In this document: in pieces, positions 10,979 to 31,714 of the stretch
Position numbering within the stretch: the stretch's first letter is position 1
Layout: each line of letters begins with the position of its first letter
Assembly (NCBI GenBank): GCA_013360745.1
Contig: JABWBA010000035.1
Coordinates: 1-32,610 of the forward strand
Direction: 5' to 3'
Length of the DNA stretch: 32,610 nt
Source: Chthonomonadales bacterium
GTDB taxonomy: Bacteria > Armatimonadota > Chthonomonadetes > Chthonomonadales > CAJBBX01
Made by a program: the position numbers and the translations under genes
The notes under the pieces: model-generated
The model's input: only the letters and a program-made list of their open reading frames with translations
The model's database searches: none
Told to the model about the DNA's origin: nothing

Positions 10979-11773
10979 GTGAAACGCTCAGGATTTACGC
11001 TCATTGAACTCCTCGTCGTCATCGCGATTATCGCTATTCTGGCGGCGATCCTCTTCCCTGTGTTCGCTCAAGCGCGATCGCAGGCGAAAAAGACCCAGTG
11101 TCTTTCGAACATCAAGCAAATGGGCCTGGGTGTCCTTCAGTATGTCCAGGACTACGACGAGAAGCTCCCCTACGGCGGACAGTCGGGCGATTGTACGCAG
11201 GTCGGGACCGCGTTCGACGGTCGTATCGTCCGGCGGGTATGGGATTGGCGCTACTCGGTCTATCCTTACATCAAGAACTCCGGCGTCTCGGTCTGTCCCA
11301 TGTGGGAGCATGAGGAGGAACCGCTCTGGGCATGGGGTCGCTGCGCCGATACGACGCTGGCCTGGCAGCAGCCCATGGCTCGGCGCTCGTATGCCGGTTG
11401 CCACAGCTGGGCCCACAACGGATACGCACCGGCCGGACGATCCATCTCGGAACCGACCCGCCCCGCAACCCTCGTGATGATCATCGAATCCCGCGAGTGG
11501 TATCCGGACCTCGGCACCTGGACCCTTCCATGGACCGTCTGGTTCGACAATGCCAAGGGTATGTTCAACGGCCATGGCACGGGCAAGGCGAACTGGTGCT
11601 TCTATGATGGACACGTCAAATCCATCAACCCCTGCGCCACGTTCGGTGCGCTCACCTGGGCTCCGGGACAGGTTCCCGCCGACGACTTCCTCTGGGAGTG
11701 GTGGTCTGGCCCCGACAGCAACGTCCTTCGCGGCTGGCAGGTTCAGTGCCGCAACATCCCCGAGAACCGCTGA
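10979..11773 (+). CDS. Prepilin-like protein 1 (type IV pilin / pseudopilin N-terminus, H-X10-DG variant)
   Basis: 264 residues. The GTG start follows a near-perfect ribosome site, AAAGGAGGT at 10965-10973. The leader MKRSG is cleaved before Phe6 (GFTLIE), followed by a hydrophobic helix ending [12 protein letters not shown], so it is a substrate for prepilin peptidase and anchored in the inner membrane or assembled in a pseudopilus. The rest is a globular domain rich in Trp, Tyr and Cys. The C-terminal motif reads H199, ten residues, D210-G211, one residue longer than the H-X9-DG motif (TIGR04294) of this class. It is a single gene closed by a terminator and is distant from the other three prepilins of the window. 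Function is probably structural or secretion-related; the exact role is unknown. Confidence 0.88.
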
Positions 11774-22169: not shown

Positions 22170-23924
22170 CTAGCCGGCGTCGGCCCGGTCGATCCGCTCC
22201 AGCTCCAGCGGATGCTCGTGCTCCATCTGGCTTCGGGATTTCCTTCCGGTCCACCAGGTCGGGCTCATCGGAAAGTCGCCCGGGCTGAAGTGGACGTTGT
22301 AGAAGTGCCAGACTGCGATGGCGAGGAAGGCCAGGATGGCTTCATCGCTATGGGCGATATAGGCTGCCGATAGCCCGATCTCCGGCAGGACGTTGCCGAA
22401 GTAGATCGGGAACCAGAGCACGAAGCCCGAGAAGACCATGATGGGCATGCCCCAGTAGACCGCGAAGTAATCGAACTTCTGACGGAAGTCGAATCGGTCG
22501 AACCTGGGCTGCTCCCGGGCGATGCCGAGGTAGTACTTGCTGAGGCCGATGAAGTCGTGCACGTCTTTCTTCGTGGGGAGCATGGTGATGGAGGAGAGCG
22601 TAAAGCCGGCTCGCTTCCATCGGACGATCAGGTCGAGGGTATGCCAGATCCACGCGACGATCATCACGACTGCCGCAATCCGATGGGTCAGTCGGGCCAC
22701 CGGCATACCGCCTATCGCCATGTAGAGGGCATGGAGCCAGTCGTTGTGCGGAAACCGCAGCGGCAGACCGGTCAGCGCAAGGACGATGAAGCTTGTGAAG
22801 AGCAGGATATGCTGCAGGCGTTGCGGGAGATCCAGCCTCCGATACTCTTTTTCGCGGGGCTGTTTCGCCGGTTTGGGAGCAAGGGCCCAGATGACGATCG
22901 CAAGGATGAGGAGGATGATGGCCGCGACACCGGTCCAACGGGGCCGGCCGAAGCCGAGCAGGCCCATCGCCAGGGCGGAGACCAGCGCGAGATAGCTCAG
23001 GCTGACGAGGAAGGAGATCGCCCTCGTCGGCCACGGTATGGAGCGCCGGGTGAAGGCCCGAACTCGCAGATCGAGGGCGATCCCGCCCAGCAGAAAGAGC
23101 ATGGTCCCGATCGTCAGCCACTGGAAGCCCAGTTCCTCCAGTCGGAGGATCAACGATTTCTTGACCTTCAACGCGAGGTGGTTCGCTCCGGACATCGCGA
23201 AGTTCATCTTCGCTCCGGGATGACAGCCGGCCTGGCCGCAGGTCGCCGCCGCGTTGGTTCGGTGCGTAGGAGCTTTGGGATCCGATGGAGCCCGAACGTC
23301 ATGGTTCCCGTGGCAGCTCACGCACGTCGCGGCGTTCGTCATGCCGAACCGCATGAGCGCTTTACCGTGAAAGCTCTGGCCATAGGAGTGGGCCGCGTCG
23401 GGATCGACTCCATACCGACCCATCATCGAAGCGTCGCTATGGCACCGTGCGCACAGGGCGACGACGTGGCGGGGATCCCGCTTGCCCCTTAGGATGGCGT
23501 GGGGGTTGTTGTCCGAGGAGTGACAGGAGACACAGGTTGGATGGTCGCCCGCCTTCTTGTCAGAGCGCGCATGGACGCTCTCGGCGTACGCGGAGAGCGG
23601 CTCGGGGTGGCAGGTTCCGCACGCGGCTTTCTCCTTAAGCATCGCTTCGGTGTGGGGAGCCGAGGTGATCGAGCTGTGGCAGTCCTGGCACTTGAACTCC
23701 GCATGCGGTGATTGGTCGATGTCGGCTCGACGGACCGCCCGGACTTCGCCCATGTCGGAGCCGTGACACGAGAGGCACGTCTCCTCGTCATCGCGCGCGA
23801 TCTGCGCATCGGGGGTGTCCTGTCCTCCGACGGGCAGCAGGGCGCCGCAGATGAGCACGGCGCCGAGACCGCCCATGAGGAGTCCGCCCCATAGAGTGCG
23901 TTGACGGCATAGCTGACGCAGCAT
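22170..23924 (-). CDS. Seven-haem cytochrome c fused to b-type cytochrome membrane domain (CbcL-like)
   Basis: 584 residues. A signal anchor (about 10-30) precedes a periplasmic domain with six CXXCH haem sites (Cys50, 79, 102, 131, 158, 201) and one CX4CH site (Cys229-Cys234-His235). Then come about seven membrane spans (262-284, 302-324, 331-350, 372-392, 412-432, 488-510, 527-545) with His372, His414, His428 and His540 as candidate b-haem ligands, like the FdnI/HydC quinol-oxidising subunits. The fusion order matches Geobacter CbcL, an inner-membrane quinol-to-periplasm conduit, which has more haems. The tail MEHEHPLELERI is recurrent in such proteins from memory. ATG 23924 was chosen because AAGAGGA precedes it; the open frame to 24554 is a shadow. 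Role: electron transfer from menaquinol outward, by inference. Confidence 0.9.
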   Translation of the reverse strand: MLRQLCRQRTLWGGLLMGGLGAVLICGALLPVGGQDTPDAQIARDDEETCLSCHGSDMGEVRAVRRADIDQSPHAEFKCQDCHSSITSAPHTEAMLKEKAACGTCHPEPLSAYAESVHARSDKKAGDHPTCVSCHSSDNNPHAILRGKRDPRHVVALCARCHSDASMMGRYGVDPDAAHSYGQSFHGKALMRFGMTNAATCVSCHGNHDVRAPSDPKAPTHRTNAAATCGQAGCHPGAKMNFAMSGANHLALKVKKSLILRLEELGFQWLTIGTMLFLLGGIALDLRVRAFTRRSIPWPTRAISFLVSLSYLALVSALAMGLLGFGRPRWTGVAAIILLILAIVIWALAPKPAKQPREKEYRRLDLPQRLQHILLFTSFIVLALTGLPLRFPHNDWLHALYMAIGGMPVARLTHRIAAVVMIVAWIWHTLDLIVRWKRAGFTLSSITMLPTKKDVHDFIGLSKYYLGIAREQPRFDRFDFRQKFDYFAVYWGMPIMVFSGFVLWFPIYFGNVLPEIGLSAAYIAHSDEAILAFLAIAVWHFYNVHFSPGDFPMSPTWWTGRKSRSQMEHEHPLELERIDRADAG

Positions 23925-29552: not shown

Positions 29553-30386
29553 GTGAACAATCGACGAGGTTTTACCCTGATCGAGCTTCTCGTCGTCATC
29601 GCCATCATCGCTATCCTGGCGGCCATTCTATTCCCGGTGTTCGCTCAGGCTCGCGAGAAGGCACGTGCCACAGGTTGTCTCTCCAATACCAAGCAGATCG
29701 GCACCGCTATTATGATGTACGTCCAGGACTATGAAGAGACCATGGTGCTGGCGGTTGAATGGAACAACTGGGGTATCTGGACGGATCGCATCGAACCTTA
29801 TCGGAAGAACTGGGATTTGATGTACTGTCCGTCCGGCGGCAATCTTCGCCTACCGGTCTCCTGGGATTTTCCGCCATACCGATGGTGGGCGAACTGGCGC
29901 TACTTTACCCAGTACGGCTTCAACGCGACCTATCTAAACCGCGCCGCCGGCGACTGCTCCGACATCCAGATTAATGGCAACGCCTTCGGCCCGCCGACCG
30001 CGTTGGCAGCGATCAACCAGCCTGCGTCGACGGTGATGTGCACCGAAACCGGCCAGGATGCCCAGAACGACATCCCGGACGGCCTCGGCACCAACATCGT
30101 CTATTCTCCCGCCGGCTGGACCGCCCCTGACTGCTGCACCTATGGCGACTGGGGTCCCTTCGCCGACGGTACGCTCTGGTATGGCTTGAACGGCAATACG
30201 AAGAACACCCGCATGGGCTTCTTCCGACCGCGACACAACGAGGGCGGCAATGTCGTCTTCTGCGACGGTCACTCCAAGTTCATGCGCCCGGGCGCCCTGG
30301 CGGCCGGCACCGACTGGAATATCAACAAGAACCCGGGTGATATCTACATCGTCGATCGCTCACAGTTCCTCTGGGATCTCCAGTAA
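29553..30386 (+). CDS. Prepilin-like protein 2 (H-X9-DG type)
   Basis: 277 residues. GTG start after GGAGGAG at 29541-29547. The leader MNNRRG is followed by [16 protein letters not shown] and then [14 protein letters not shown], so it is cut by prepilin peptidase after Gly6 and carries a long hydrophobic helix. The remainder is a globular domain with several Cys and aromatic residues. The processing-associated motif is intact: His228, nine residues, Asp238-Gly239, then His. In Planctomycetes and Armatimonadota such proteins occur in many copies with an unproven function, likely surface or secretion pseudopili. Its stop TAA shares a base with the ATG of the following lipoprotein gene (TAATG). 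It is paralogous to gene 3; the first 120 or so bases are nearly the same. Confidence 0.9.
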
Positions 30387-30898: not shown

Positions 30899-31714
30899 GT
30901 GAACAATCGGCGAGGTTTCACCCTGATCGAACTGCTAGTCGTCATCGCCATCATCGCTATCCTGGCTGCCATCCTGTTCCCTGTTTTCGCCCAGGCCCGC
31001 GAGAAGGCACGGCAGACGTCCTGCTTGTCCAACTTCAAGCAAGTGGCGCTGGCTCATCTCATGTACGTCCAGGACTTCGACGAGACGTTTGCGCCCTTCA
31101 TGTGGGGGCCCGGCGACGGCGGGTTCAGCTATGATTGGGCCACCTGTTTCACGTGGCCTCAGATGGTCGTACCCTATGTCAAGAACTGGCCGATCTTCCG
31201 TTGCCCCAGCGACGCGTATGCCAAGGATTCCCAGTCGTTGGTCAATATGGGCTATCCGGCCAACGCAACCGGGCGGCAGCTCGAGTACGCCGTGGGCCTC
31301 AACACGGACCTCGGCTACAACTACATGCACCTCGCCCCGATGAAAGGCTCCGCAGCCCAATCCCAGGGCAAGGGGATCGGTGCACTCGCGAAAGCCGCGA
31401 ATACCTATATGTTCCTGGACAGCGTCTGGGATTACGCTGGGTGCGATGTGCCTAAGGGCGGCGGCAACTGGTTCGTTGAGGCTCCGAGCTACTGGTATTC
31501 GACCTCGGAATGGTGGTTCGGCGGTTGGGATATCGACGACTGCAACAGCTGGCTCCACTACGGCGGCACGTTCCCGCGCCACAGCAATGCCGCCAACGTT
31601 GCCTTCACCGACGGCCATGTCAAGGTGCAGCGGGTGGGCGACATGCTTCAGGGCGTCAACCCCCGGACCTACGAAGTTACGGATCGCGCTGCGTTTCACT
31701 GGAGCGTGGACTGA
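30899..31714 (+). CDS. Prepilin-like protein 3 (H-X9-DG type)
   Basis: 271 residues. GTG start after AAGGAGGAG, the same arrangement as gene 2. Leader MNNRRG, then [16 protein letters not shown] and [14 protein letters not shown]; Gly6 is the expected cleavage residue. The globular domain is rich in aromatic residues ([29 protein letters not shown]). The motif His228, nine residues, Asp238-Gly239-His is intact. It shares its first 50 residues with gene 2, then diverges strongly, which is typical of tandem duplication followed by diversification of the exposed domain. It has its own promoter. Two small membrane-protein genes follow after a hairpin region. Confidence 0.9.

Follow-up and report, generated by a model that had tools for sequence, protein, structure and literature searches.

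The window, by which we mean the whole 32,610-nucleotide stretch that was analysed, is contig C9 of an Armatimonadota MAG of 3.32 Mb (127 contigs, 97% complete). On its minus strand we found an open reading frame of 584 aa, which begins with an ATG at 23924 and ends with a stop codon at 22170-22172. The open frame continues upstream of this ATG to 24554. An AAGAGG stretch lies six bases 5' of the ATG, and the N-terminus that follows is hydrophobic by hydropathy (residues 14-32), so the start at 23924 is favoured. The first 235 residues contain six CXXCH motifs and one CGQAGCH motif of the CX4CH type (Table 1). When residues 1-262 were shuffled, six or more CXXCH motifs appeared in none of the 2000 shuffled sequences (0/2000; mean 0.06), indicating that the six motifs are not due to chance. 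The Pfam domains above their cut-offs were Ni_hydr_CYTB (PF01292, residues 364-542, 38.8 bits vs 30.1), Paired_CXXCH_1 and Cytochrome_C7. An earlier note on this DNA had described a protein with six CXXCH motifs and one CX4CH fused to an FdnI-like b-type domain, and this description was confirmed by the translation, Pfam, the motif count and the fold match given below, with the gene on the minus strand.

Table 1. Features of the CbcL-like gene and its product in the window (residue numbers refer to the 584-aa protein)
Feature	Window position	Strand	Basis
CbcL-like cytochrome c/b fusion, 584 aa	22170..23924	-	translation, Pfam, homologues
Hydrophobic N-terminal signal/anchor, residues 14-32	23829..23885	-	hydropathy
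Heptahaem c domain, residues about 45-258, presumably periplasmic	23151..23792	-	Cytochrome_C7/Paired_CXXCH; folds HAO/HDH, OcwA, MtrA
Haem site 1, CLSCH, 50-54	23763..23777	-	invariant in alignment A1
Haem site 2, CQDCH, 79-83	23676..23690	-	motif and alignment
Haem site 3, CGTCH, 102-106	23607..23621	-	motif and alignment
Haem site 4, CVSCH, 131-135	23520..23534	-	motif and alignment
Haem site 5, CARCH, 158-162	23439..23453	-	motif and alignment
Haem site 6, CVSCH, 201-205	23310..23324	-	motif and alignment
Haem site 7, CGQAGCH (CX4CH), 229-235	23220..23240	-	motif and alignment; CXXCH in 5/25
Interdomain segment of three long helices, 258-348	22881..23153	-	model, hydropathy
FdnI-like di-haem b domain, 357-584	22173..22856	-	1kqf_C Z 14.8, 206/216 residues; PF01292
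His372, b-haem ligand, equivalent to FdnI His18	22809..22811	-	alignment; 25/25
His414, b-haem ligand, equivalent to FdnI His57	22683..22685	-	alignment; 25/25
His525, b-haem ligand, equivalent to FdnI His155	22350..22352	-	alignment; 25/25
His540, b-haem ligand, equivalent to FdnI His169	22305..22307	-	alignment; 25/25

The genes around this open reading frame are partly carbohydrate-active by Pfam, including an arabinofuranosidase and a GHL6/GH42M protein, so that the carbohydrate-related surroundings claimed earlier were borne out for part of the neighbours. The CbcL-like gene stands alone amid unrelated window genes, some of them for carbohydrates, and this setting counts against a role in the outer-membrane conduit discussed below. 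A search of plasmid records returned no match. Elsewhere in the window, three similar proteins belonging to one cluster are encoded at 10979-11773, 29553-30386 and 30899-31714; the one that was scanned has an N_methyl pilin-type start and a DUF1559 domain.

We examined the distribution of the gene in 291 genomes of the phylum, and found a match at an E value of 1e-20 or lower in 88 of them. A single match spanning both domains was present in 37 genomes, which belong to families f1, f11, f15, f20 and f35. These 37 form the full-length set, defined by one match that runs from residue 116 or earlier to residue 577 or later; distant relatives in which the c and b parts match separately, commonly 11-haem proteins of around 690 aa, fall outside it. 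Alignment A1 comprises 25 of the 37 full-length sequences, including the window protein, to which the 24 relatives are 43-65% identical, and alignment A2 comprises 22 of the 30 named loci. The nearest named relatives are from Chthonomonadales MAGs and other Armatimonadota, and more distant ones are from Gemmatimonadota, Leptospiraceae, Candidatus Eisenbacteria and Achromatium. In the tree of the 25 sequences and three outgroup rows, the sequences of the gene's own family form one group (support 99/95), which fits vertical descent within that family.

Each of the seven C...CH sites is found in 25/25 aligned sequences. Outside the motifs, histidines 118, 142, 186, 208 and 249 are invariant (25/25), His74 and His91 occur in 22/25 sequences and His128 in 21/25. 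With five invariant and two near-invariant histidines, bis-His ligation is possible for all seven haems. The c domain was also modelled alone (pLDDT 85.6). Foldseek alone gave one weak match for this model (E 0.41), and when the 16 chains selected by Foldseek went into the fold comparison, all 12 entries listed were multihaem cytochromes, with Z of 7-8 for HDH/HAO, 5.9 for OcwA, 5.2 for MtrA of the Mtr complex and 2.4 for NrfH. The likeness of the predicted heptahaem fold to the HAO/HDH haem core, OcwA and MtrA, at middling Z and with models that carry no haems, suggests a continuous haem chain and implies no catalytic role.

CX4CH sites occur in cytochromes c3, where, in the words of the earlier note, they are unusual and mark specific haem positions. 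We found that the seventh site of the window protein is CX4CH in 20/25 aligned sequences and CXXCH in 5/25, with the remaining haem plan unaltered. Mapping the two labels on the tree required four changes, three of which are forced by well-supported branches, indicating at least three independent switches. The occurrence of CXXCH in 5/25 sequences and the repeated switches show that the CX4CH spacing is tolerated and not required. The reading of the CX4CH as an essential mark of a special haem position was rejected on these grounds. The decahaem protein of the conduit described below also terminates in CX4CH.

For the membrane part, the whole-protein model (pLDDT 77.2, pTM 0.68) had E. coli FdnI as its sole Foldseek match under E 0.001 (E 3.3e-05). 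VIA-align superposed the b domain on FdnI (1kqf_C, the cytochrome b556 subunit of formate dehydrogenase N) with Z 14.8 and rmsd 3.1 over 206/216 residues, followed by hydrogenase-1 cytochrome b with Z 9.4. In the full-length comparison, FdnI and two chains of hydrogenase-1 cytochrome b are followed by transporters, receptors, subunits of oxidases and cytochrome b6f (Z about 6-7), which were taken as common helical arrangements. Histidines 372, 414, 525 and 540 align with FdnI histidines 18, 57, 155 and 169 and are invariant; we take these four positions to be the two haem pairs of FdnI. Residues 478-483 align with FdnI 109-114, presumably part of its quinol site, and Lys483 is invariant. The earlier note had named two outcomes that would speak against its reading, a best match to a family without a quinol site and b-haem histidines that are not paired. 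Neither was found, as FdnI is the best fold and its four histidines are all matched, in the pairing that we assume for FdnI.

Besides the four b-haem ligands, His428 and His571 are invariant. His428 (window 22641-22643) lies 14 residues past His414, is conserved in 25/25 sequences, and is present in an 11-haem relative of the same phylum too. Three long helices separate the c and b domains in the model (Table 1). The second and third of them fall in a gap when the protein is aligned with the 11-haem relative, so that either the branch of the window gene gained a helical hairpin or the 11-haem relative lost one.

FdnI has the same four-helix fold and the same four b-haem histidines as the b domain of the window protein, but it lacks c haems and partners with formate dehydrogenase. 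It is the top structure, and formate dehydrogenase gamma (TIGR01583) is the top curated family, as would be expected if the protein were a membrane subunit of formate dehydrogenase, hydrogenase or a similar periplasmic dehydrogenase with extra c haems. However, the matches to NCBIfam curated models were all sub-threshold, and the best of them, TIGR01583, stays far below its cut-off (50.4 vs 115.85 bits). In addition, the Pfam scan of 10 nearby window proteins revealed neither a formate dehydrogenase or hydrogenase nor an iron-sulphur protein, and the relatives of the gene adjoin cytochrome genes, with no conserved gene for a catalytic subunit next to them. We therefore regard a dehydrogenase subunit as highly improbable. 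The assignments to formate dehydrogenase gamma or hydrogenase cytochrome b were rejected on score, as was the NapC/NirT or ImcH type (PF03264, 14.4 bits vs a cut-off of 24.1); a separate NapC/NirT-type protein adjoins the gene in some relatives.

The fusion of a multihaem c domain to an FdnI/HydC-like di-haem b domain is shared with CbcL, MtrH and MtoC. According to the family description in the quinol oxidase survey of 2018, c-haem motifs lie in the N-terminal half, a HydC/FdnI-like transmembrane domain lies in the C-terminal half, and the number of haem motifs spans 3-23 (PMC6295460). The window protein has this architecture, and its seven motifs are within that range. Judged by the described architecture, the CbcL-like order of an N-terminal multihaem c domain and a C-terminal FdnI-type b domain, as claimed in the earlier note, is present, and the protein fits the architectural definition of the wider CbcL/MtrH/MtoC family. 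It does not belong to CbcL in the strict sense (the Geobacter clade), with seven haem sites and not nine: Geobacter sulfurreducens CbcL (GSU0274) is described with nine CXXCH motifs (PMC9129911), whereas the window protein has six CXXCH and one CX4CH. A further mark of that clade is a quinol oxidation on which the use of low-potential extracellular acceptors depends. Six helices were predicted for CbcL in the survey (PMC6295460), compared with seven long helices at residues 258-545 of the window protein (model and hydropathy peaks), although the methods differ between the two counts.

In the same survey, mtrH and mtoC are described next to outer-membrane conduit genes (PMC6295460), and the relatives of the window gene likewise adjoin such genes. 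Among the sampled Armatimonadota genomes that have both genes, the CbcL-like gene lies 10 kb or less from an outer-membrane cytochrome gene in 12 of 24, and all 12 belong to family f15. The conduit cluster consists of a decahaem MtrA/DmsE-like protein, a barrel and an octahaem outer-membrane cytochrome. In one relative (locus L062) the cluster starts with the decahaem protein and continues with the beta-barrel (Porin_4), octahaem cytochrome, CcmF, monohaem cytochrome and CbcL-like gene. The octahaem cytochrome of L062 matches the MtrC/MtrF domain (33.6 vs 30) and has the N-terminal sequence LQSC, which we read as a putative lipobox. Conduit genes lie inside the retrieved stretch at 6/30 named loci; in this count, many stretches are truncated where a contig stops, and split forms of distant relatives make up some of the loci.

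The arrangement of decahaem, barrel and outer-membrane cytochrome genes resembles that of Shewanella MtrCAB and Geobacter GSU2203-GSU2204, in which these genes are likewise adjacent. Unlike MtrCAB, the conduit has a cytochrome with eight CXXCH motifs that is far under the OmcA/MtrC cut-off (P0004, TIGR03507 30.7 vs 209.3), and its barrel gave no match to an MtrB model. The MtrC/MtrF domain PF22113 is above its cut-off in P0004 (33.6 vs 30).

We also found a conserved monohaem cytochrome of some 110 aa, which contains a DSDGDG-like stretch, matches Temptin_C weakly and adjoins either the CbcL-like gene or the outer-membrane cytochrome. In 11/30 named loci (the same stretches) its gene lies just upstream of the CbcL-like gene, at a distance of 188 bases or less. 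This makes it a candidate shuttle between the CbcL-like protein and the outer-membrane cytochrome. CcmF is located in the conduit cluster (L062:7197-9590), and CcmE lies beside the CbcL-like gene in another relative (L068:11875-12264); their placement suggests that haem maturation genes are kept with the conduit.

In the genome that carries the window, contig C47 has the genes of the decahaem protein (344 aa) and the barrel as its final complete ones. This decahaem protein is 47% identical to the L062 copy, and the barrel is 29% identical over the matched part. Past the barrel, a new frame with a signal-like start opens before the contig end. Contig C66 breaks off inside an outer-membrane cytochrome, of which 469 aa with eight CXXCH motifs are left (48% identical); it is adjoined by a monohaem cytochrome (L091:7032-7370) that is 44% identical to that of L062. 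From these sequences, we conclude that a predicted conduit is present in the genome itself, split over two contig ends and away from the window. The decahaem protein (L088:4990-6021) scores 178.7 bits against the 192.2 cut-off of TIGR03508, and P0002, which is 47% identical to it, scores 200.1. Against the conduit reading, the decahaem protein is thus below the curated cut-off and the profile search gave no family match for the barrel; PF22113 is not listed among the domains of the conduit cytochrome of this genome. The genome search that had been proposed for outer-surface multihaem cytochromes thus yielded an octahaem outer-membrane cytochrome at the end of C66. The suggested link to extracellular electron transfer gained support in two ways: relatives carry the gene beside the outer-membrane conduit, and the genome itself has a conduit.

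The co-occurrence of the two genes was then compared over the 291 genomes. An outer-membrane cytochrome is present in 24/37 genomes with the CbcL-like gene and in 37/254 without it (odds ratio 10.8, p 4e-10, shared descent ignored); thus, 37 of the 61 cytochrome-bearing genomes are without the CbcL-like gene. The gene's own family comprises 12 genomes. Of these, 8 have the gene and 6 the cytochrome, all 6 among those 8, and the 4 genomes without the gene are also without the cytochrome. In the 6 genomes of this family that have both, the two were found on one contig in none, which, like the 37 cytochrome-bearing genomes without the gene, counts against the conduit reading.

Since 13/37 genomes with the gene have no outer-membrane cytochrome, other acceptors are possible. 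The same 13 genomes count against the conduit reading in that 9 of them have neither NrfA nor a HAO-like protein, and only 3 have any decahaem match. The same quinol oxidase might serve a periplasmic reductase (NrfA, a HAO-like octahaem cytochrome or an unknown one) and not the conduit, which in the window's own genome would then be fed by another protein. The best folds of the c domain are HDH/HAO, and both controls are enriched with the gene, again with descent ignored: NrfA occurs in 15/37 genomes with it and 33/254 without it (odds ratio 4.6), and HAO-like cytochromes in 6/37 and 15/254 (odds ratio 3.1). Both are encoded in the window's own genome, NrfHA on contig C6 and a HAO/hydrazine-dehydrogenase-like octahaem cytochrome on C64 (L089:4012-5553; type found in 21/291 genomes). 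However, NrfA is already adjoined there by its own NrfH (157.6 bits vs the 134.2 cut-off). Across the 291 genomes, no NrfA or HAO-like gene lies on the same contig as the CbcL-like gene, whereas the outer-membrane cytochrome is within 10 kb in 12/24. Moreover, a periplasmic partner of the NrfA or HAO-like kind is itself missing from those 9 of the 13 genomes. Service to a periplasmic reductase is thus rather unlikely in our view.

A different role is supported by the domain make-up, the conserved ligands and the fold of the b domain, as well as by the clustering in relatives and the conduit genes that this genome itself carries. Taken together, this data suggests that the protein is an inner-membrane quinol:cytochrome oxidoreductase of the CbcL/MtrH/MtoC kind, a quinol oxidase supplying an extracellular electron conduit, to which we assign a probability of roughly 70%. 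In the proposed mechanism, the FdnI-like b domain would oxidise quinol, at a presumed site and with the quinone type likewise presumed. Electrons would traverse the membrane via two b haems, putatively ligated by His372/His540 and His414/His525, and would then enter the fused seven-haem periplasmic chain. From this chain they may pass to carriers in the periplasm, of which the conserved monohaem cytochrome is the probable recipient. Next in the likely order would be the decahaem MtrA/DmsE-like protein in the outer-membrane barrel, and then the octahaem outer-membrane cytochrome, which would be exposed at the cell surface. The final acceptors may include material outside the cell (mineral, humic matter, an electrode or a partner cell) as well as soluble ones.

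The direction of flow in this mechanism could also be the reverse, with a donor outside the cell (Fe(II) or a partner cell) supplying electrons that pass through the conduit to the quinone pool, as proposed for MtoC. CbcL/MtrH/MtoC homologues are described from Fe(III) reducers as well as Fe(II) oxidisers, and the direction is not told by any sequence feature (PMC6295460). Against inward flow, the genome resembles that of a heterotroph in its gene content. It has carbohydrate-active and nitrite reductase genes, and contig C17 has genes that we take to be those of the nitrate reductase NarGHJI and alternative complex III. Inward flow is decidedly unlikely on this basis, and quinol oxidation with outward transfer is the reading that we carry forward.

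Armatimonadota are mostly known as heterotrophs. We propose, as a claim evenly balanced in our judgement, that extracellular respiration may be an old, vertically kept trait of this phylum. In at least two families (f1, f15), members that degrade carbohydrates would possess a complete route from quinol to the surface, made up of the heptahaem CbcL-type oxidase, the monohaem shuttle and the decahaem-barrel-octahaem conduit, in some genomes with haem-maturation genes. If this route works as proposed, it would give the phylum a testable link from the breakdown of carbohydrates to respiration of the mineral, humic or interspecies type. The protein and the matching conduit suggest that a little-studied phylum may respire on material outside the cell. 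The phylum is missing from the CbcL/MtrH/MtoC table of the 2018 quinol oxidase survey (PMC6295460), and its name does not occur in the main text of the MtrCAB survey of 2022 (PMC8805035). In the literature searched, we found no report of CbcL, of such a conduit or of an extracellular electron transfer route in Armatimonadota. The nearest is a mention, for one hot-spring taxon, of multihaem cytochromes that are embedded in the membrane and have no known function (PMC11788075). The novelty is the phylum and the coupling, not the kind of protein.

Several observations were made at the loci of relatives. Immediately upstream of one closely related copy of the gene, we found a protein of 777 aa with three CXXCH motifs and a hydrazine synthase alpha middle domain (L056:7448-9778; PF18582, E 3.5e-20). 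The record of locus L068 is labelled Methanoregulaceae archaeon SJ84, but its gene order is the same as that of the Fimbriimonadaceae locus L069, with near-equal lengths, and it is probably a mis-binned bacterial contig. At another locus (L070:11802-13292), a NapC/NirT-type multihaem protein of 497 aa with six CXXCH motifs, ImcH-like by its domains, directly adjoins the gene. This type is present in 20/291 genomes, 12 of which have the CbcL-like gene and 15 the outer-membrane cytochrome. This distribution indicates that the phylum may hold two quinol oxidases, like Geobacter.
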